Assembly: GCA_947175335.1 (NCBI GenBank) | Contig: CAMWMF010000004.1 | Coordinates: 62,001 to 126,000, forward strand | From: an uncultured Clostridia bacterium | Lineage (GTDB): Bacteria > Bacillota > Clostridia > Christensenellales > Pumilibacteraceae | Length of the DNA stretch: 64,000 nucleotides | Reading direction: 5' to 3' | Shown: one piece after another, positions 1-11,205 of the stretch | Position numbering within the stretch: position 1 is the first letter of the stretch | Layout of the letters: each line of letters begins with the position of its first letter | Position numbers and translations under genes: made by a program | Notes under the pieces: generated by a model | Told to the model about the DNA's origin: nothing | What the model saw: only the letters and a program-made list of their open reading frames with translations | Database searches by the model: none

Positions 1-1356
1 AACCTTATATTCGGTCTTATCTTAGCGTTTTGCGAGGACGTCATTAGCGGCAAAATGGATGAGAAGCAGTTACAGCTTTTCAATGTATACCATAACATTA
101 CCAAGTATTGCTCGGAAGATACTACCGCGCTCAAACAGTATTTGCTTGAAGGGCGCGACGAGTATTCAAAGGTAAGAGGTCTTGTAAACACCGTGCTTAT
201 AACGAGCGACAAAACGCTTACAAGCTATCTGTCCGAAGTCAACGCGTACATACAGCAGCTTGCCGACGACGGAATACTGTCGATGACGAGCGAGAACGAT
301 ATAGACATCGTGAACATGGACGAAAAGCCAAACGCCATATTCGTAATCGTTCCCGACGAGCGTTTTACAAGACACCGCTTTGTAACGCTGTTCATCACGC
401 AAACGTACAAAGAGCTTGTCGAAAAGGCAAATCTAAACTTGCGGCGCAAGGATACGGAAACGGCAATACTCAAACGCAAAGCGTACTTCATCTTGGACGA
501 GTTCGGCAACCTTCCAAAGCTTGAGAACATAGAGGGTATGGTTACGGTAGGTCGTTCGCGCGGCATAAGGTATCTGTTCGTATTGCAAAGCTTTTCACAG
601 CTAAATGCGAAGTACGGAAAGGATATAGCCGACATTGTCAAAACTAACTGTAACGTAAAAATCTTCATAGGCAGCGACGATCCCGATACGCGTAAAGAGT
701 TTTCGGAATTGTGCGGGCAGAAGAAGATAAAAAACTTCTCGGTCAACACAAGCGCCGAAGTCAATGCAAGCAGTAACACGGGCGCGACAAATCAGCCGCT
801 TATAACAATCGGTATGCTTGAAAGACTGAACGGCAACGAGAAGGGCGACGCCATTGTATCGGTCAGGGGTTACGAGCCGATTTGGTCAAGATTTACACCG
901 TCGTATGAACTTGCGGACGTTTACTTCGAAGCAGGGAAAGCGGACATAGGAAAGCGCGAAGCACGGCTGTTTGAGAAACGTGATTACGTTTTCGATATTC
1001 TCAACGGCAACCCGACTCAAGAGGAAGATGCAGCGTTGGACGCATTGGAACGCCGAGAGCAAGAACAAGCCGAACAGGAAAGGACGAAAACGGTCAATGT
1101 TGACGAGTTGGACAAGCAGTGGAACGCCAAAGTAAAAGAAGTCCATGACAAAGTGTTCCGTGCGGCGGAAGCGCTTTTGGAAGAAGACGCGGCGGCGCTT
1201 ATTCGTGCGAAGCTCGAAGACAAGATAACGCTTATTAAAGTGTTTATAAGCAATTACGATATAAGCGTACAGCAAAAGTTAAAAGCGCTCATCAAGTTCT
1301 TGGAAGAAGAGCTGCCTAAACTTTTGGACTTGCAAAACCAAGCAAAAAACAAATAA
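1..1356 (+). CDS. VirD4/TraG-type type IV coupling protein, C-terminal part (5' truncated by window edge)
   Basis: Frame is open from base 1 (NLIFGLILAFCEDVISGKMDEKQ...) before the listed Met. Motifs AYFILDEFGNLPKLENIEGMVTVGRSRGIRYLFVLQSFSQL and TNCNVKIFIGSDDPDT are typical of the TraG/VirD4 C-terminal ATPase half. Confidence 0.88.
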   Translation, partial: NLIFGLILAFCEDVISGKMDEKQLQLFNVYHNITKYCSEDTTALKQYLLEGRDEYSKVRGLVNTVLITSDKTLTSYLSEVNAYIQQLADDGILSMTSENDIDIVNMDEKPNAIFVIVPDERFTRHRFVTLFITQTYKELVEKANLNLRRKDTETAILKRKAYFILDEFGNLPKLENIEGMVTVGRSRGIRYLFVLQSFSQLNAKYGKDIADIVKTNCNVKIFIGSDDPDTRKEFSELCGQKKIKNFSVNTSAEVNASSNTGATNQPLITIGMLERLNGNEKGDAIVSVRGYEPIWSRFTPSYELADVYFEAGKADIGKREARLFEKRDYVFDILNGNPTQEEDAALDALERREQEQAEQERTKTVNVDELDKQWNAKVKEVHDKVFRAAEALLEEDAAALIRAKLEDKITLIKVFISNYDISVQQKLKALIKFLEEELPKLLDLQNQAKNK

Positions 1357-1367
1357 AAGGAGAAGTA

Positions 1368-2840
1368 ATGAAAAGGACAATTAAATCAACCGTTGTAACG
1401 CTCACGGCATGTGCGGCGTTATTTTTTGCCGGAATATTCTGTGCCGGATTCACTACGGCAAGCGCGGAAGGCGCGGCAGATCAATGTATCCATGTATACG
1501 AACAAACGGAAGTCGCGCCGACCTGTACCGAACAAGGCTATACGCTCTACACCTGTATGGAGTGCGGCGAAGAAAGGAAAGACGGCTATACGGAAGCAAA
1601 AGGGCATAACTACATCGAAACTTCGGTCGCTGTAACTTGCACATCGGCGGGTTATACGCTCTATGTTTGCGAGGATTGCGGTCACACGTATACTGAAACG
1701 ACAGCAGCGGCAAGCGGACATATATTCTACGACGTCGTAGTCCCGCCGACTTGTACGCACAAAGGGTATACAACGCATTTCTGTAAAACTTGCGGCTTTG
1801 AGTATACGGACAACTACATAAACGAACTCAAACACAGCTACAAGGAAAACGTTGTTGCGCCTACTTGTGCCGAGCAAGGTTATACGGAACATACTTGTTC
1901 GATTTGCGACGAAGTCTATTTCGACAACTACATTGACGCGCTCGGTCACAATTACGAAACGGAAATAACAAAGCCGACTTGCTTGGACGGCGGCTATACG
2001 ACTTACACTTGCGTGACTTGCGAGGATAGCTACGTTGCGGACTATACCGCGGCGACGGGACACACCTATGCGGAAACCATAGTCGAAGCGACTTGCATAA
2101 CCTACGGCTATTTCGAACACGTTTGTAAAGACTGCGACGACAGATATGTTACCGACTACGCTGCGCCCAAAGGACACAAGTATTTGGAAGTTCTTGTTCC
2201 TGCAACCGAGAACAGTCTTGGCTATACGCGCCATATATGCGTTGACTGCAATTACAGCTATCTTTCGGACTATGTAACGAGCGGCGACGTCGGGTATATT
2301 CCCGAACCCGAAGAGCCTGTCATACCCGAATTTCATAAGCACGTTTATGAAATTCAGACTATGGACGACGCCGAAAATATGAGTCTTATAGTTATGCGCG
2401 TATGCTACTGTGGCAAAGCGAAGCAGGGATATCTTTCGGTCACTTTCACGAACGACGAGGGCGAAATCACCGAGGACAAAATAACGGGCAACAGGATCGA
2501 CTATTCCGAAATGTTCGGACAAGTCATTATCTCTATTGCCGATGAGAATGGTGAACAGCTAAAGGCGGTAGTGGTGACTGCGCAAGAAAAGCAAGTCGAG
2601 CCTACGTTGCCCGACGAGCCTACAAAACCGGACGAGCCTAATGTTCCCGATGAGCCTAATAATCCCGATAATCCGACTGAGCCTACTACGCCCGAAGAGC
2701 CTAACAAGAACGTAGCCGAAACAAAAAGTAGCGGCAGCGGTGCGGCGGTGGCTATATTCGTAGTTCTCATCGTGCTTATACTCGGTGGTGTCGGCGGCTT
2801 TATAGCTTACAAGAAAATCAAAGCAAAGAAACAGAAATAA
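1368..2840 (+). CDS. Membrane-anchored surface protein with about 7 Cys/His (CxxC...GH) repeats, PDEP-rich stalk and C-terminal TM
   Basis: Signal-like N-terminus; repeats of the form PTCTEQGYTLYTCMECGEERKDGYTEAKGH; PDEPTKPDEPNVPDEP stalk; AVAIFVVLIVLILGGVGGFIAY TM then Lys-rich tail. Confidence 0.8.
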   Translation: MKRTIKSTVVTLTACAALFFAGIFCAGFTTASAEGAADQCIHVYEQTEVAPTCTEQGYTLYTCMECGEERKDGYTEAKGHNYIETSVAVTCTSAGYTLYVCEDCGHTYTETTAAASGHIFYDVVVPPTCTHKGYTTHFCKTCGFEYTDNYINELKHSYKENVVAPTCAEQGYTEHTCSICDEVYFDNYIDALGHNYETEITKPTCLDGGYTTYTCVTCEDSYVADYTAATGHTYAETIVEATCITYGYFEHVCKDCDDRYVTDYAAPKGHKYLEVLVPATENSLGYTRHICVDCNYSYLSDYVTSGDVGYIPEPEEPVIPEFHKHVYEIQTMDDAENMSLIVMRVCYCGKAKQGYLSVTFTNDEGEITEDKITGNRIDYSEMFGQVIISIADENGEQLKAVVVTAQEKQVEPTLPDEPTKPDEPNVPDEPNNPDNPTEPTTPEEPNKNVAETKSSGSGAAVAIFVVLIVLILGGVGGFIAYKKIKAKKQK

Positions 2841-2857: not shown

Positions 2858-3157
2858 ATGTTAAACTTTTTATCGGCAGAAACCGACGGCTTGAACGGAA
2901 GCCTTGCGGAAATCGTCAGCAAACTCAAAGGCTTGATGGATAGTTTTTGGGTGTACATCGTTATAGCGCTTGCGGCGGTGGTCGTCGTTTGGGGCGCGTA
3001 CATAGGCATTAAAATAGCAATCGCACACCGCAACGAGGAAAAGATAAACGCCCGTGATATGGTGAAAAACTTAATAATAGGCATAGTCATAATCTTCGTT
3101 GTTGCGATGGGCGCTCCGCTGCTTATCAACGGCTTGTCCGCATGGGTAGGCGCGTAG
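2858..3157 (+). CDS. Small two-TM conjugation protein (VirB2/TrbC pilin-like or Maff2-like)
   Basis: 99 aa, two hydrophobic helices split by IAHRNEEKINARDMVKN; sits between T4SS genes. Confidence 0.6.
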   Translation: MLNFLSAETDGLNGSLAEIVSKLKGLMDSFWVYIVIALAAVVVVWGAYIGIKIAIAHRNEEKINARDMVKNLIIGIVIIFVVAMGAPLLINGLSAWVGA

Positions 3158-3175
3158 AGCTGAATATCCGAACAG

Positions 3176-3197
3176 GGCGGCAAGGTAGCTTGCCGCC
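3176..3197 (+). other. Intergenic stem-loop after pilin-like gene
   Basis: Perfect 9-bp stem GGCGGCAAG-GTAG-CTTGCCGCC without a following U-tract. Confidence 0.6.
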
Positions 3198-3222
3198 TTG
3201 CCTTTCGGGTAAAGGAGAGTAA

Positions 3223-4434
3223 ATGCTTATATTTTTTCAAGAGATATGTTTGCAGTTGTTCTTATGGCTGTTAAAACTAATCGACGGACTGATGGAAATC
3301 TTTTCGGCAATCGCCGGAGTTACGAACGTAAAGGTGAACGGACAGTCGGTAAACATTATCGAATATCTCGCGGGGAATAGCACGGTAGGCACCGTCTTTT
3401 GGTGCATATTCATATTAGCTGTCGGACTGACTTGTATCTTTACGATTGTCGGACTCGTTAAGAATATGATAGCGAACAACCGAAATATATCGAGCATCGT
3501 CGGCAAATTCTTTTTGGCGTTGCTCGGCACAATGGCAATGCTTGCCGTCGTGTTCTTAGGGATAATGATAGCCAACTCGTTGTTACAGTTGCTTGCTCGT
3601 ATCTTTGAGCTTAACACTTCCAAGAAACTGTCGAACGCGCTTTTCAACGCTTGCGTAGGAAATTGGGTCAACGGCTATAACATAAACAAAATCAATGTAA
3701 CGTCGTTGTCCGTGAGCGATATATTCGGCGATTACAATTCGGCGCTATTCGGCATTTGGCCCACGAGTTGGAAATGTAACGGTATGGTCAATCCCAACAC
3801 GTTTATGTACTTGCCTTCGCTTATTGCAGGTATAGCGCTTTTAATTGCGCTTATCATAGCAACGCTCAACCTTGCAAAGCGCGTGTACGAAATAATTTAC
3901 CTATACCTTTGCATGCCCGTATCAATGTCTACTTTGCCGCTCGATGACGGTGCGCGGTTTAAGAATTGGCGAGAGCAGTTCATTACCAAAATCATACTTG
4001 CTTACGGTGCGGTGTTATCGGTAAACGTATTTATACTTTTGCTGCCTATTATCCAATCGATGTCTATACCGAGCGTCGGCAGTTTCGGCAATTCGATATT
4101 CCGTATTTTTATGATAGTCGGCGGCGCTATGGTAATTCCCGCAGGACAGACATTGTTTGCAAGACTGTTCGGTACGGCGGACGATATGCATGCAGGTGGC
4201 AGTTGGCTACGTTCGGCATACTACGGCGGAAGAATGGTCGGCGCTATGACAATAGGCTTGGCTGTAAAAGGCGTTAAAGGTATTGCACACGTTGTCAGTC
4301 ACAGAGTACACCGCAACCGCGGCGGCAGTTCGGACAGCGGCGATTCATCGAGCAGCACGGATAACGGTGGCGATGAGAAATATACGGACGACGGCGGCGC
4401 GGCAACGAGCGCAACGGAAGGAGGAAGTGAATAA
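3223..4434 (+). CDS. VirB6/TrbL-like polytopic conjugal transfer protein
   Basis: 403 aa, multiple TM helices, located directly before VirB4; ends TAATG overlapping the next start. Confidence 0.7.
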   Translation: MLIFFQEICLQLFLWLLKLIDGLMEIFSAIAGVTNVKVNGQSVNIIEYLAGNSTVGTVFWCIFILAVGLTCIFTIVGLVKNMIANNRNISSIVGKFFLALLGTMAMLAVVFLGIMIANSLLQLLARIFELNTSKKLSNALFNACVGNWVNGYNINKINVTSLSVSDIFGDYNSALFGIWPTSWKCNGMVNPNTFMYLPSLIAGIALLIALIIATLNLAKRVYEIIYLYLCMPVSMSTLPLDDGARFKNWREQFITKIILAYGAVLSVNVFILLLPIIQSMSIPSVGSFGNSIFRIFMIVGGAMVIPAGQTLFARLFGTADDMHAGGSWLRSAYYGGRMVGAMTIGLAVKGVKGIAHVVSHRVHRNRGGSSDSGDSSSSTDNGGDEKYTDDGGAATSATEGGSE

Positions 4435-7064
4435 TGCGAATAATCCCCAAAAAAGTAAAAGTTAAGAATACCGTATGGAAATGCTATTCGATGGCGGACG
4501 TTATCGTCGCGCTCATTATGTTCGGCATTATCTTTATATCCGTAACAATGGGGCAATGGGTGATTGCAGTTATACTCGGACTGTTGACAGTCGGTATGTT
4601 CGTGCCTACGCCCGACGGTATCTTTTACACTTGTATCTTTGAGAACATACGGTTTTTGTTCTCAAAAAAGAAATACACAGTCGAAGCGAAGAACGCAAAA
4701 GAAAGCGTGGACGCGCTTGTAGACTTAAAAGAAATCAAGGACAACGGTCTGATCGCTTATAAGGGCGGTATGTTCGGCAGGGTAATTAAGGTCGGTCAAA
4801 AAAATTTCGGTGTCGAAGATGTAGTTCAGCAAAACATTGACATTAACTACTTTGCGAACGCGCTCAAACTGTTAGACCAAAACCAAAGCGCCGACATTGT
4901 AAAAATCGACCGCCCTGTAAACTTGGACGTCTTTTCAAGTGATTTGTTTGCGCGGTTGTCCGCGGTTAAGGATAGCGACGATGAAAGCGGCATCAAAGAG
5001 ATAAAAGAGCGTATGCTGACAGAGCGCATAGACCGCATAGACCGTTTGAACAATATCCGCAAGCAGTATTTGTCGGACTACTACATAATCGTTTACGGTC
5101 GTAACGAGCTTGATTTGGAAAGCATGGCGGTCAACGTGGCAAGCGAAATCGCTAAATGCGGACTCGATACACAGCTTTTGAACATGCGCGATACGGCGGT
5201 ATTCTTGAAGTACAGTTATTCGCGTAACTTCGACGAACGCGCAATCAAGGACTTGAAAGACGATGAGCTGCTCGATTGGGTGAAACCCAAAGAGATAGTT
5301 TTCCGTGCGAACAAGTACAAGATAGACGGAACGGAAGCGGCGGTGTTTGCCGTATCCGACTATCCGTTGCGCGTAAAGAACGCATGGGGAGCGGAGCTGT
5401 TCAACATACCTAATACTAAAGTCGTCATGCACATAAAACCCGTAGATAGGGTTAAGGCTATTCGGCGTATAGACAAGTGTATCGGCGAGATGGAAACGAA
5501 GCAAATTATTTCGGACAAGGCTAGCGAAGCGAACAGCGCGGAAACGCATAGGGCAACAATGGATACGCTTTTGGACGCGTTACAGACCGAAAACGAGAGC
5601 TTGTTCGACGTAACGCTCACGGTCACGGCTTATAACTACACGAACAACGACAGCTACAAGAAAGCGGTGCGGCGTTCATTGCTTACGGGAAGTTTTCGAC
5701 CGTCAACGCTTTACGGTTTGCAAATCGAAGGCTTTAAGTCGGCAGCGGTATCGCCAATATCTACACTTAAAAGCCAAGAGCGCGGTATAAACAGTTCGTC
5801 GCTTGCTGCGGCGTTCCCGTTTGTTCGCACATTTGTTATGGACGACGGCGGCGTACTGCTCGGTGAGAACAACAAAACGGGTTTTCCTTTCATCTTCAAT
5901 ATGTGGAAACGCGGCAATCTTTACCAGAACAGCAATGCGTTTATTATAGGTAAATCGGGTAGCGGTAAATCGTACTTCCTGAAAAACCTTGTCATAAACG
6001 AGTGGACGAACGGAACGCGGGTAATAATGCTCGATCCCGAAGCTGAATACCTTGCGCTTACGCGTAACCTTTACGGCAACGTAATCAATGTCGGTAACGC
6101 GAGAGAGGGTCGGATAAATCCCTTTCATATATATAAGATTCTGACAGAGGACGGAACGCCCGCCGACAGCAAGGTTACGTTTAATACTCACTTAAAAATG
6201 CTTGAATCGTTCTTTAAAATCGTGCTTGCGGACGCGCCGCTCGACGTTATCGAGCTTATAAACAACCTTGTCGTGGAAACTTACGAGCGCAAGGGAATAA
6301 CCGAAAACACGGATTGTTCCGACTTAACGGCGGAAGCCTTCCCGTTGTTTTCTGATTTGCTTAAAACGCTGCAAAGCAAGGATAGAGAGAAAATGGATGC
6401 GCTCACTCAAAGGGATATGCGCACGGCTGAGCTGTATTTGCAAAAGTTTGTAAATGGACGTTACTCGGATATTTGGAACGCGCCTTCGACTTTGCAAGTC
6501 AACGCTAACCTAATAGACTTTGACTTCCAAAGCTTGTTTGCGAACAAGAACAATGTTGTAGCAAACGCGCAAATGCTTTTGGTGTTTAGGTTTATTGAAC
6601 AAGAGGTAATAAATGCGCGTGAGTGTAACAAGAACGGCGCCAACTTGCGAACGCTTATAATCGCGGACGAAGCGCATTTGTATATCGACCCGAAGTTCCC
6701 GATAGCGTTAGACTTTTTCTACTCAATGAGTAAGCGTATTCGTAAGTACAACGGTAGCTTTATTCCAGCTACGCAGAACATAGCCGATTGGAACGCTAAC
6801 GAGGAATTGCGCGGCAAGACGAGCGCGATCATTAAGAACAGTCAGTACACGTTCATATTCAAACTGTCCGCGCCCGATATGAAAGACGTATTGGACGTTT
6901 ATAGGGCGGGCGACAGCTTTAACGACGAGGAACAGCGCATGATAATCTCGGCGGTAACGGGACAAGCGTTCTTTGTCGGCTCGACCGAGCTTCGCGCTTG
7001 CGTTCGCATACAAGCGGGCAAGTGCGCACGAAAATTATTTATAGAAGAAAAAAAGGAGAATTAA
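4434..7064 (+). CDS. VirB4-family conjugation ATPase with N-terminal PrgI/VirB3-like TM segment
   Basis: Walker A GKSGSGKSYFLKN, VIMLDPEAEYLAL, Walker B RTLIIADEAHLYID, TQNIADW; N-terminal hydrophobic hairpin. Confidence 0.9.
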   Translation: MRIIPKKVKVKNTVWKCYSMADVIVALIMFGIIFISVTMGQWVIAVILGLLTVGMFVPTPDGIFYTCIFENIRFLFSKKKYTVEAKNAKESVDALVDLKEIKDNGLIAYKGGMFGRVIKVGQKNFGVEDVVQQNIDINYFANALKLLDQNQSADIVKIDRPVNLDVFSSDLFARLSAVKDSDDESGIKEIKERMLTERIDRIDRLNNIRKQYLSDYYIIVYGRNELDLESMAVNVASEIAKCGLDTQLLNMRDTAVFLKYSYSRNFDERAIKDLKDDELLDWVKPKEIVFRANKYKIDGTEAAVFAVSDYPLRVKNAWGAELFNIPNTKVVMHIKPVDRVKAIRRIDKCIGEMETKQIISDKASEANSAETHRATMDTLLDALQTENESLFDVTLTVTAYNYTNNDSYKKAVRRSLLTGSFRPSTLYGLQIEGFKSAAVSPISTLKSQERGINSSSLAAAFPFVRTFVMDDGGVLLGENNKTGFPFIFNMWKRGNLYQNSNAFIIGKSGSGKSYFLKNLVINEWTNGTRVIMLDPEAEYLALTRNLYGNVINVGNAREGRINPFHIYKILTEDGTPADSKVTFNTHLKMLESFFKIVLADAPLDVIELINNLVVETYERKGITENTDCSDLTAEAFPLFSDLLKTLQSKDREKMDALTQRDMRTAELYLQKFVNGRYSDIWNAPSTLQVNANLIDFDFQSLFANKNNVVANAQMLLVFRFIEQEVINARECNKNGANLRTLIIADEAHLYIDPKFPIALDFFYSMSKRIRKYNGSFIPATQNIADWNANEELRGKTSAIIKNSQYTFIFKLSAPDMKDVLDVYRAGDSFNDEEQRMIISAVTGQAFFVGSTELRACVRIQAGKCARKLFIEEKKEN

Positions 7065-8972
7065 ATGAGAGTTAAAACTAAAAGCTTTTGGACTATTGTG
7101 GCGTTTGCCGTAGTTATGGCATTACTTGCATTGCTTTTCGTGTTCACGGATAAACCGAAACCTGCAAGTGCGAAAACTACACGTTCGGCACAATGTACAG
7201 TTCAAGGACGAGTGGAGTATCCGCTTGGATCATACTCTACTGTTAATGTTAAGAACAATTTTACGATAGAAATGGCGGCTTCCGTTCCTGTTGGAGCAGG
7301 TACTCTTGAACAACATGCAAAATTAGATTGGTCATCGGTAACAATAAAAGTCAATGTAAAAAGTTTGGATGCACATAAATATTTTGCGTTGTACAAAGAC
7401 GGAGAGGAATATTATATGCAGTCTTTGTCGGGTAAAAGTTCTATGATACTGTTTGACGACGAATTGCCGGATGGAGATTATAAGATGGTATATGCATTTG
7501 GCATGACCCAAGGAGGGTATACTTATCCTACTATGTATTACGTATTTCATTTTTCTATGGATACAACAGCTCCTGAATATACAGTTACGACTAATGGAGA
7601 ACCAATATCTTACTATTCGTACACCAATAAACCTATTCTATATTCGGCTTCCGATCCGAACTTTGAAGCTATCTATTATAAAGGTCCAAAATTAACCACG
7701 TATGGTATGACCTTAAATAAGTATTATCTTGTTGAAGCAACACCTAACAATACGGGTTGGTGGGAATTCTATGCTACCGACTCGTATGGGAACAAAACGA
7801 CAACTTATTTTAAAGTGTATTTGGATTGTACACTGCCGACACTTTCGTGCAGTTCGGAAGCCGCTTTCGGTGGGACGACGGGGAATGATTTTACGGTAAC
7901 AGCAACCGATGATTCGGGTCAGGCTAAACTATACGTAAAATATGAGAGTGAGGAATGGTTTTATGCCGATGGTGATTCTTACACTATTCCTATGACCGAG
8001 CGTAACGGTAGATATTATTTCTATGCCGAGGATAGGGTTGGAAACCGCACTCAAACTTCGTGGATCGTTTTGAGTACAGAAGATCCGGCCGGTAGATTGG
8101 TAAAGTCCGATTCCGACAACAGTGTTTCATTCGTATGGAATAACGAATATTGGACAGCGAAGTTGGACGGCGCGAATTATACGGAAGGACGTATCATAAG
8201 CACGGAAGGGCAGCACGTAATAGAGCTTTCAAATAATGCGTCGAAAAAGAAAACGTATACGTTCAGAATCGATCACTGCTACCAAGTAGTAAGTCAGACC
8301 GAGCCGACTTGTTCTGCGGACGGTAAAAGAGTTTCTGAGTGCAGCCAATGCGGGGATGTTTATGAGGAAGTGTTGTATTCGACAGGACATATTTATGGTG
8401 TGAATACCACACCGTCGTCGTGTACTGAAAAAGAGCATTTGATATATACTTGCAGTAGGTGCGGTGATCGGTATGAAGCCGAGGGCAATTATCCGTCAGG
8501 GCATACATACACAAACGAAGTAGTGATTGAGCCGACTTGTACGGAAGACGGCTTGCGTCGTAGCACGTGCGAGAATTGCGGTTATTCTTTCGATACGAAA
8601 ATAGAAGCCAACGGGCATGACTACAATATAACCGACTCGACTTCCAAAGACGGCATAACGACGAGGACTTATACTTGTTCGGAATGCGGTGACAGCTACA
8701 AACAAGAGCTTGGCGATCAGTACGAAGAAGTAAGCAACTACGTTGAGTATTTGTTTAAGCAGTATGAGCCGTACATGTGGTGGGTGCTGCTTGCTTCGGC
8801 AGGGGTGTGGAGTATAGTTATCGGCGTGATGATAGCTATTGCCAATAAGAACGAGGACAAAGAGAAAGCGAGGAAGATGCTTAAAAACTATGTCATCGGC
8901 TTGGTGGTTATAGCTGTTATCCTTGTCGCTTGCCCGTTCCTAATCCGCGGAATTGCGGCGCTTGTAACGTAA
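7065..8972 (+). CDS. Surface protein: Ig-like domains, four Cys/His repeats and C-terminal two-TM module similar to the 99-aa pilin-like protein
   Basis: N-terminal signal/TM; DTTAPEYTVT/DCTLPTLSC Ig-like segments; CSQCGDVY, CSRCGDRY, CENCGYSF, CSECGDSY repeats; C-terminus IAIANKNEDKEKARKMLKNYVIGLVVIAVILVACPFLIRGIAALVT. Confidence 0.75.
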   Translation: MRVKTKSFWTIVAFAVVMALLALLFVFTDKPKPASAKTTRSAQCTVQGRVEYPLGSYSTVNVKNNFTIEMAASVPVGAGTLEQHAKLDWSSVTIKVNVKSLDAHKYFALYKDGEEYYMQSLSGKSSMILFDDELPDGDYKMVYAFGMTQGGYTYPTMYYVFHFSMDTTAPEYTVTTNGEPISYYSYTNKPILYSASDPNFEAIYYKGPKLTTYGMTLNKYYLVEATPNNTGWWEFYATDSYGNKTTTYFKVYLDCTLPTLSCSSEAAFGGTTGNDFTVTATDDSGQAKLYVKYESEEWFYADGDSYTIPMTERNGRYYFYAEDRVGNRTQTSWIVLSTEDPAGRLVKSDSDNSVSFVWNNEYWTAKLDGANYTEGRIISTEGQHVIELSNNASKKKTYTFRIDHCYQVVSQTEPTCSADGKRVSECSQCGDVYEEVLYSTGHIYGVNTTPSSCTEKEHLIYTCSRCGDRYEAEGNYPSGHTYTNEVVIEPTCTEDGLRRSTCENCGYSFDTKIEANGHDYNITDSTSKDGITTRTYTCSECGDSYKQELGDQYEEVSNYVEYLFKQYEPYMWWVLLASAGVWSIVIGVMIAIANKNEDKEKARKMLKNYVIGLVVIAVILVACPFLIRGIAALVT

Positions 8973-8984
8973 GAGGAAATATAT

Positions 8985-9040
8985 CGGTTAGGCTGCGCTC
9001 GGCAACGGGCGTAGCCTAATTCCGATTATTTTTTAAAATT
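8985..9040 (+). terminator. Rho-independent terminator of conjugation operon
   Basis: TTAGGCTGCGCTC...GGGCGTAGCCTAA hairpin followed by a T-rich tract. Confidence 0.7.
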
Positions 9041-9773: not shown

Positions 9774-10991
9774 ATGAAACAAAATAGCTCACCACAGATT
9801 GATAGCTCAATAGCACTTTTACTCGAATCAATGAAAAAACAGAATGAGTTGTACGAGAAAGTGCTGACGGGATTGGTTCCAACAACAAAAATAGAGAGTA
9901 AGGTTGAAAGTCGCCGGAATGTGCTGAAATTCACAAAAAAGGAGATTCCTGACTTGAAAAAATTTTACGATAACATCTTTGCTGCGAATAATCTCATTGT
10001 ACATTATAGATTAAGACAAGACGGAGTATTCGAGGCAAGATTCCATAGGCAGGGTATAGATATTGAGGTATCATCCAAAGATTTACCCACATTAAGACAA
10101 AAATTTCTCGACAAACTTCATAATATAACAGCCGAGAAAATAGCAGGCAAAATTAAAACGTTTGCTGAATACGCAGACGAGTGGTTAAAAGTAAAAAAAG
10201 TAACCACAAAACCATTGACTTATAACGAGTATGAGCGAATGTTAAATCGAGATATACTTCCCATATTCGGAAATAAGCCGGCAAACGAAATTTGTAGAAG
10301 CGAGTTGCAAAACTTTTTGCTTTCAATCGTCGAGAATGGTACATTACGTACTGCTCATAAACTATTTTTAGTGCTTAGGTGCATATTCGATGTAGTAGCG
10401 GACGATTATAACATCACATCACCGATGAAGAAAGTGGTAGTACCTAATTACCAAAGCAAGAAAGGCTCGGCGTTCTCGTACGCAGAAGAAAAGCAACTTG
10501 TAAACTACTGTCTGACTAATCTGAACAAAGAATCATCTCATGCGCTTATGGTGCTTATTTACACTGGTTTAAGGCGTAGCGAGCTTGCAAGTCTAAAAAT
10601 AATAGACGGCAAATGGCTTGAATGCGACACGAGCAAAGAGCGTATGGGGCAAAATGTTGTTAGGCGCAAAATCCCATTTACACCTATGATGAAACGTGTA
10701 TTACCATATATCGACTTTGAAATGGCAAAACACGCTAACGTTAATACGTTACATGGGACGCTAAAACGATTGTTCCCTGAACACCACTTACATGAATTGC
10801 GTTACACATTTATTACGCGCTGTAAAGAGTGTGGCGTACATGGTGAAGTAGTTATGCTGTGGGATGGACACGAGGAAGATAAAACCGTTCATTCTTCGCG
10901 GATCGATAGGGGATACACAGATTTTTCAGACGAATTTATGTTGAAAGAAGCAGAGAAAGTAGATTACCTAAAATGGGACTTTCCGAGCTGA
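9774..10991 (+). CDS. Tyrosine recombinase/integrase
   Basis: TGLRRSEL (Arg I), HELRYTF (HxxR), LWDGH and RGYTDF (candidate Tyr); next to a tRNA cluster. Confidence 0.88.
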   Translation: MKQNSSPQIDSSIALLLESMKKQNELYEKVLTGLVPTTKIESKVESRRNVLKFTKKEIPDLKKFYDNIFAANNLIVHYRLRQDGVFEARFHRQGIDIEVSSKDLPTLRQKFLDKLHNITAEKIAGKIKTFAEYADEWLKVKKVTTKPLTYNEYERMLNRDILPIFGNKPANEICRSELQNFLLSIVENGTLRTAHKLFLVLRCIFDVVADDYNITSPMKKVVVPNYQSKKGSAFSYAEEKQLVNYCLTNLNKESSHALMVLIYTGLRRSELASLKIIDGKWLECDTSKERMGQNVVRRKIPFTPMMKRVLPYIDFEMAKHANVNTLHGTLKRLFPEHHLHELRYTFITRCKECGVHGEVVMLWDGHEEDKTVHSSRIDRGYTDFSDEFMLKEAEKVDYLKWDFPS

Positions 10992-11129: not shown

Positions 11130-11205
11130 TGGCAGGGGTAGAAAGATTCGAACTTTCGGAATGACGGAGTCAGAGTCCGTTGCCTTACCGCTTGGCGATA
11201 CCCCT
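11130..11205 (-). tRNA. tRNA-Gln(CTG)
   Basis: Reverse complement AGGGGTATCGCCAAGCGGTAAGGC-ACGGA-CTCTGAC-TCCGT...CTACCCCTGCCA; encoded CCA. Confidence 0.92.

Follow-up and report, generated by a model that had tools for sequence, protein, structure and literature searches.

A T4SS pilin-like module present both free and fused to a large predicted ectodomain in a conjugation operon of Clostridia

In diderm T4SSs, the pilin VirB2 and the protein VirB5 are separate: pilin subunits dock at VirB3/VirB6 in a process powered by VirB4, and VirB5, which is assembled on VirB6, faces outwards at the tip of the pilus and is thought to contact recipients (PMC12624023). As for the Gram-positive conjugative T4SSs, reviews describe them as devoid of VirB2 pilins and of pili, Patescibacteria excepted (PMC12857230, PMC12102498), and the recent ones hold that conjugation in these bacteria relies on wall-anchored adhesins. 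A role in mating contact has been shown or supported for PrgB of pCF10 and for the lipoprotein CDS14 of the Mycoplasma agalactiae ICEA (PMC12857230, PMC6030558), both of them surface proteins of Gram-positive-type conjugative elements. Small two-TM proteins encoded near virB4 form the Pfam family T4SS_pilin (PF18895), which is the VirB2 profile used for Patescibacteria (PMC12102498), with several pilins per locus in some relatives; in the mycoplasma ICE, the protein Mbov_0395 / MMCAP2_0565 (NF045849) is likewise a free two-TM protein beside a VirB6 of the Mbov_0396 type and a VirB4 of the Mbov_0397 type.

The locus described here shares this arrangement and differs from the T4SS_pilin loci of Patescibacteria in that it belongs to a conjugative element of Clostridia with a relaxase, and in that one of the two pilin-like copies bears a large ectodomain. 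It lies in the window, i.e., the whole stretch of 64,000 nucleotides that was analysed (Table 1). The gene order is MobL relaxase (E 5.9e-9), VirD4, 490-aa Cys/His protein, free pilin, VirB6, VirB4 and fused protein, which places both forms within one conjugation operon, as the earlier note had claimed; relaxase, coupling protein, VirB4 and integrase occur together, and the element is by this gene content an ICE. The VirD4-type protein matches T4SS-DNA_transf (E 2e-30), TraG-D_C (E 2.5e-30) and the NCBIfam CD1115-type family (E 2.7e-47). The 490-aa protein has a signal peptide, Cys/His (CxxC...GH) repeats, a Pro-rich linker, a single C-terminal TM and a basic tail, and an AGGAGG-type site is found upstream of the free pilin gene. 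The start codon of the fused gene abuts the stop codon of VirB4 at the next base, and the terminator-like stem that follows it lies in a region where such sites are, overall, no more numerous than in shuffles. The left ICE end and an att repeat were searched for in the 62 kb to the left and not found. The ICE also encodes, at G000:C4:43309-55509 (L006:309-12509), one 4066-aa protein that combines methylase, SNF2 helicase, MutS_I and DUF3849 domains; an ArdC-type protein and two DNA methyltransferases come next.

Table 1. Features of the conjugation operon and of the right end of the element, in window positions
Feature	Position	Strand	Basis
VirD4-type coupling protein, C-terminal part (gene start upstream, about G000:C4:61143)	1..1356	+	Pfam, NCBIfam
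490-aa surface protein	1368..2840	+	sequence, alignment
Free T4SS pilin-like protein, 99 aa, two TM helices, basic cytoplasmic loop (predicted)	2858..3157	+	PF18895, Mbov_0395, hairpin model
VirB6-like polytopic protein, MMCAP2_0566 / Mbov_0396 family	3223..4434	+	NF045848, E 1.2e-55, 189 bits (cut-off 90)
VirB4 ATPase, Mbov_0397 (mycoplasma ICE) family	4434..7064	+	NF045975, E 4.7e-172
Fused protein, 635 aa, ectodomain and C-terminal pilin module	7065..8972	+	kept in relatives
Signal peptide of fused protein, residues 1-36 (...ASA)	7065..7172	+	sequence; helix 6-26 in model
Ig-like beta domains of fused protein, about residues 165-405	7557..8279	+	model, Foldseek
Four Cys/His (CxxC...GH) repeats of fused protein, residues 402-548, last incomplete	8268..8708	+	sequence comparison
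Pilin module of fused protein, residues 549-635, two TM helices	8709..8969	+	BLASTP, PF18895, model
Terminator-like stem, 16 pairs	8986..9021	+	directly after fused gene, last of operon
Tyrosine integrase, right ICE end	9774..10991	+	Pfam; beside 3' end of tRNA-Gln gene
tRNA-Gln gene, at right ICE end	11130-11205	minus	

Regarding the kinship of the two proteins, BLASTP aligns residues 12-97 of the 99-aa protein with residues 549-634 of the 635-aa protein without gaps, with 33 of 86 positions identical (38%) and an E of 9e-18; both ORFs are at their expected positions, and this alignment, first claimed in the earlier note, is confirmed. The family profiles of the free and fused modules also match each other (hhalign probability 98.5%, E 2.6e-15). 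A chance likeness of two hydrophobic hairpins was ruled out with 5000 shuffles of the short protein, made separately within its tail, TM1, loop and TM2 so that the composition of each segment was kept: the local score of the 99-aa against the 635-aa protein was 153, while the shuffles had a mean of 42.4, a standard deviation of 8.7 and a maximum of 86 (z 12.6), and hydrophobicity alone is therefore no explanation for the match. Judged from their sequences, the 99-aa protein and the C-terminal 86 residues of the 635-aa one are paralogues.

As for the identity of the module, all 15 modules tested, free and fused, match PF18895 at E ≤ 0.01. The matches of the two window proteins are weak: the fused module scanned alone reaches 27.2 bits, above the curated cut-off of 26.6, and the free 99-aa protein 22.6 bits (E 1.1e-4), below it; the free pilins of sister operons score 37-46 bits, and each of the three kinds of fused module described below exceeds the cut-off (27.2, 28.4 and 27.3 bits). 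The mycoplasma Mbov_0395 family is matched by the free copy with an E of 1.7e-5 and by the fused one with 4.1e-4, at scores (24.4 and 20.0 bits) that fall under the family cut-off of 40. The free form is of an already known kind, its mycoplasma relative being named pilin-like by NCBI. Maff2, which the earlier note had suggested as a related family, has to be dropped, as neither protein matches it in Pfam or NCBIfam.

AlphaFold2, with models built from 4-6 sequences, predicts a two-helix hairpin for the free protein (pLDDT 72.7 overall) and for the fused module, where the helices span residues 559-595 and 599-634. Foldseek comparison of the free hairpin with solved structures gave no match at E ≤ 0.001, and a profile search of the PDB sequences gave chance matches only. 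The loop is the segment with the highest basic charge in 44 of 47 modules, and by the positive-inside rule both ends of the module are predicted to be outside, as they are in VirB2; the predicted module thus resembles diderm VirB2 in having two helices, a basic inner loop and outer ends. With this orientation, the ectodomain of the fused protein would also be outside, where the N-termini of VirB2 lie, and its signal peptide agrees with an outside N-terminus. Free and fused copies have the loop motif NE.K..A..M..N in common.

Another identity is conceivable for a small two-TM protein of this kind: it could be VirB3-like, or another small part of the inner membrane, and the fusion would then tether a surface protein to that part. 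VirB3 is likewise small with two TMs, and the Pfam and NCBIfam matches of the operon include no separate VirB3 gene. The modules, instead, match T4SS_pilin and then, as the second Pfam family in some relatives, TrbC/VirB2 (E 1.8e-5 in L100), never VirB3/PrgI; their ends are predicted outside, whereas both ends of VirB3 are inside (PMC12857230); and VirB4 has its own N-terminal two-TM hairpin, which may stand in for VirB3, although a VirB3/PrgI identity of this hairpin was looked for and not confirmed. A non-pilin nature of the module is, on balance, very improbable.

NCBIfam VirB6 profiles match both the free and the fused modules weakly; a third copy of the module within the VirB6 of the window was sought by profile-profile comparison of the family, and none was found. 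In two other loci, L059 (G534) and L060 (G634), the VirB6-like proteins, about 870-1010 aa long, begin with a signal peptide and an ectodomain and continue with a pilin-like hairpin, and G534 has three such genes in a row, which suggests that the pilin hairpin has been built into VirB6 as well.

The N-terminal part of the fused protein was claimed to be an Ig-like plus Cys/His-repeat ectodomain, and this description holds. Its model is mostly beta, with a pLDDT of about 80-93 across residues 170-400; Foldseek matches it to Ig-bead proteins, with bacterial surface proteins ranked first; its orthologues give weak Pfam matches to Ig_7 / DUF7743; and its Cys/His repeats are homologous to those of the 490-aa neighbour. 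These repeats are, judged by their distribution, generic surface repeats of this order and no pointer to conjugation: the 635-aa query finds matches in 123 of 297 genomes of the order, mostly via Cys/His repeats in large ORFs, and a conjugation-specific Cys/His domain was ruled out, since the repeats recur across the order in many large surface proteins of unrelated kinds. The CxxC...GH repeats, of ∼38 residues, are covered by no Pfam family and are also found in huge surface proteins of up to about 4200 aa (e.g., in G294, G238 and G249).

Close relatives of the module were found in 10 of the 297 genomes of the order. All seven complete operons among them (G000, G191, G230, G177, G252, G296, G241) hold both forms, with two free pilin copies in G252; in G215, G158 and G242 the operon is broken by a contig end, and these were left outside this count. 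The IMG/VR contig L057 also carries both forms, while in a second one (L058) the operon is cut. The co-occurrence of free and fused forms in related ICEs, on which the earlier note had made its claim depend, is thus borne out: no complete operon of the family lacks either form. Phylogenetically, the family's free copies and its fused copies are sister clades with a joint support of 96/83, the support for the fused clade itself being modest (90/63); the simplest reading of this topology is a single duplication before the spread of the family. The proposal of a duplicated T4SS pilin-type module, with one copy fused to an ectodomain, in the operon of a Gram-positive T4SS is supported by these data.

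Two relatives have exactly one in-frame stop in the fused gene, with the frame otherwise open: in G177 (L035:5047-7170) at residue 627 of 708, where ectodomain and module meet, and in G296 (L038:6604-8853) at residue 585 of 750. The stops may reflect a pseudogene or inactive gene, an assembly error, or release of the ectodomain, and their occurrence in two relatives means that the fused gene may be dispensable. All the sequences compared are MAGs or contigs. The plasmid collection contained no relative, and in a phylum-wide sample the pilin type occurred in 2 of 348 other genomes at E 1e-5; given this rarity, its generality is limited to Clostridia. Weak module matches in L101-L105 were rejected as unrelated proteins by their make-up; L105, with a very long branch in the tree, was disregarded.

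The sister operons of the order fill the slot between VirD4 and the pilin, which is constant in position in many of its T4SSs, with an Ig-like surface protein with one C-terminal TM (L118-L129), usually of about 1000-2500 aa, and several of these proteins match the profile of the fused protein with E from 9e-83 to 3e-21; they are likely wall-spanning or contact proteins. In the window family, the same slot holds the Cys/His-only 490-aa protein, and the Ig-like domains are on the fused pilin instead.

Pilin modules with an ectodomain also occur outside the window family, in two further T4SS lineages of Clostridia whose ectodomains are unrelated. In G434 (L100), a 363-aa protein has a signal peptide, ∼280 aa of ectodomain and a pilin module; its gene immediately precedes those of two free pilins, with a VirB4 gene lying downstream. 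In G548 (L062), a 348-aa protein has an unrelated N-terminal part and a terminal pilin module, with a free pilin in the same locus; the ORF as called lacks a signal peptide, and it may belong to a gene that is longer or broken. The modules of G548 and G434 cluster with the free pilins of their own lineages and not with the fused clade of the window (support 98/88 and 100/98), from which it follows that the fusion of pilin and ectodomain would have arisen at least three times, with less certainty for G548. Two or three tandem VirB2-like pilins with signal peptides precede VirB4 in the Clostridia loci L067 (G456) and L100 (G434), an arrangement that the pilin arrays of Patescibacteria resemble.

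A comparable Ig-like protein is held by one ordinary TM in the sister operons; anchoring can thus suffice by itself, and the fused module could be just an old pilin hairpin that holds a surface adhesin in the membrane and makes no contact with a pilus or channel. The evolutionary rates speak against this. Between orthologues, the dN of the module is 2.2-13.5 times lower than that of the ectodomain of the same fused protein (dN/dS was set aside because dS was mostly saturated), and in 15 of 15 genome pairs conservation is higher in the module than in the single-TM anchor of the 490-aa protein of the same genomes (e.g., 0.75 vs 0.51 and 0.63 vs 0.25). Having a low dN and being better kept than a plain TM anchor, the module appears to be more than a hydrophobic anchor; these rates argue for specific contacts of the module and for a free-running ectodomain, and the fused copy has kept the pilin loop motif. 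A role as plain anchor is, for these reasons, unlikely.

Regarding the function of the pair, the reading that we propose, and that we consider about evenly balanced between being right and being wrong, is that the fused copy serves as a specialised pilin subunit by which an outward-facing protein is docked to the apparatus of DNA transfer, in a VirB5-like role. The 99-aa protein would be the main pilin-type subunit of a Gram-positive conjugative T4SS, and the 635-aa protein its paralogue with an acquired, secreted N-terminal ectodomain. Both modules would be seated in the membrane like VirB2, with the ends outside and the basic loop inside, and the outward N-terminus would make room for a large N-terminal ectodomain at the surface or tip of a pilus. 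The loop motif is common to both forms, which suggests that they dock at the same place; this would be the VirB6/VirB4 site that handles pilin subunits, and the Ig-like and Cys/His ectodomain would thereby come to lie on the outside of the apparatus, either at the base of a pilus-like assembly or at its tip, where it could cross the cell wall and/or touch the recipient. Only a minor role would fit the fused form, because a helical filament could be blocked if each of its subunits bore a large ectodomain. Against the docking reading stands the fact that no pilus is known in any such system.

The likeness to VirB5 would be one of role: no VirB5-family match of the fused protein was obtained by sequence or domain, and VirB5 is helical, while the ectodomain here is Ig-like beta plus Cys/His repeats. 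PrgB and CDS14, in turn, are anchored by an LPxTG motif or by lipid, and the fused protein by a pilin module.

The fused protein could also be a structural part that spans the wall, i.e., a stalk or channel lining that connects the membrane with the wall and has no part in recipient binding, like VirB5 on VirB6 or in the role of VirB8/VirB10. The fused gene belongs to the core operon and adjoins VirB4, Pfam and NCBIfam recognised no VirB8- or VirB10-like protein in that operon, and reviews expect a component with such a role, large outward soluble domains having been noted in Gram-positive systems (PMC12857230). The ectodomain, however, varies between close relatives in a way that a structural core does not: the protein ranges from 635 to 865 aa, the make-up of its repeats differs, and one relative (L037) has Cys/His repeats in place of the Ig-like domains. 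A purely structural function seems, with this variation, rather improbable.

A broader proposal goes beyond the docking of one protein, namely that in such Gram-positive conjugative T4SSs a VirB2-type pilin is assembled into a genuine pilus or a pilus-like channel, into which dedicated pilin-ectodomain chimeras, arisen at least three times, are incorporated as exchangeable adhesins of the tip or base that help to determine the partners contacted; we regard it as possible, though doubtful.

In conclusion, this family of elements from gut Clostridia encodes a predicted VirB2-type pilin and a second pilin with an outward-facing domain, the latter beside the motor gene. No description of pilin fusions in T4SSs was found in the literature outside subscription journals, and, within that literature, neither the fused form nor its conservation or repeated origin appears to have been described. 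From the conserved and repeatedly arisen pairing it would seem that surface proteins docked on a pilus are part of some Gram-positive DNA-transfer machines, contrary to what the reviews hold. Other elements can be screened for the same pattern of a slow pilin module, a fast ectodomain and repeated fusion. Docking of the fused protein into the apparatus, if it occurs, would join adhesin and channel in one molecule and give a direct handle on how Gram-positive systems cross the wall and find their partners.
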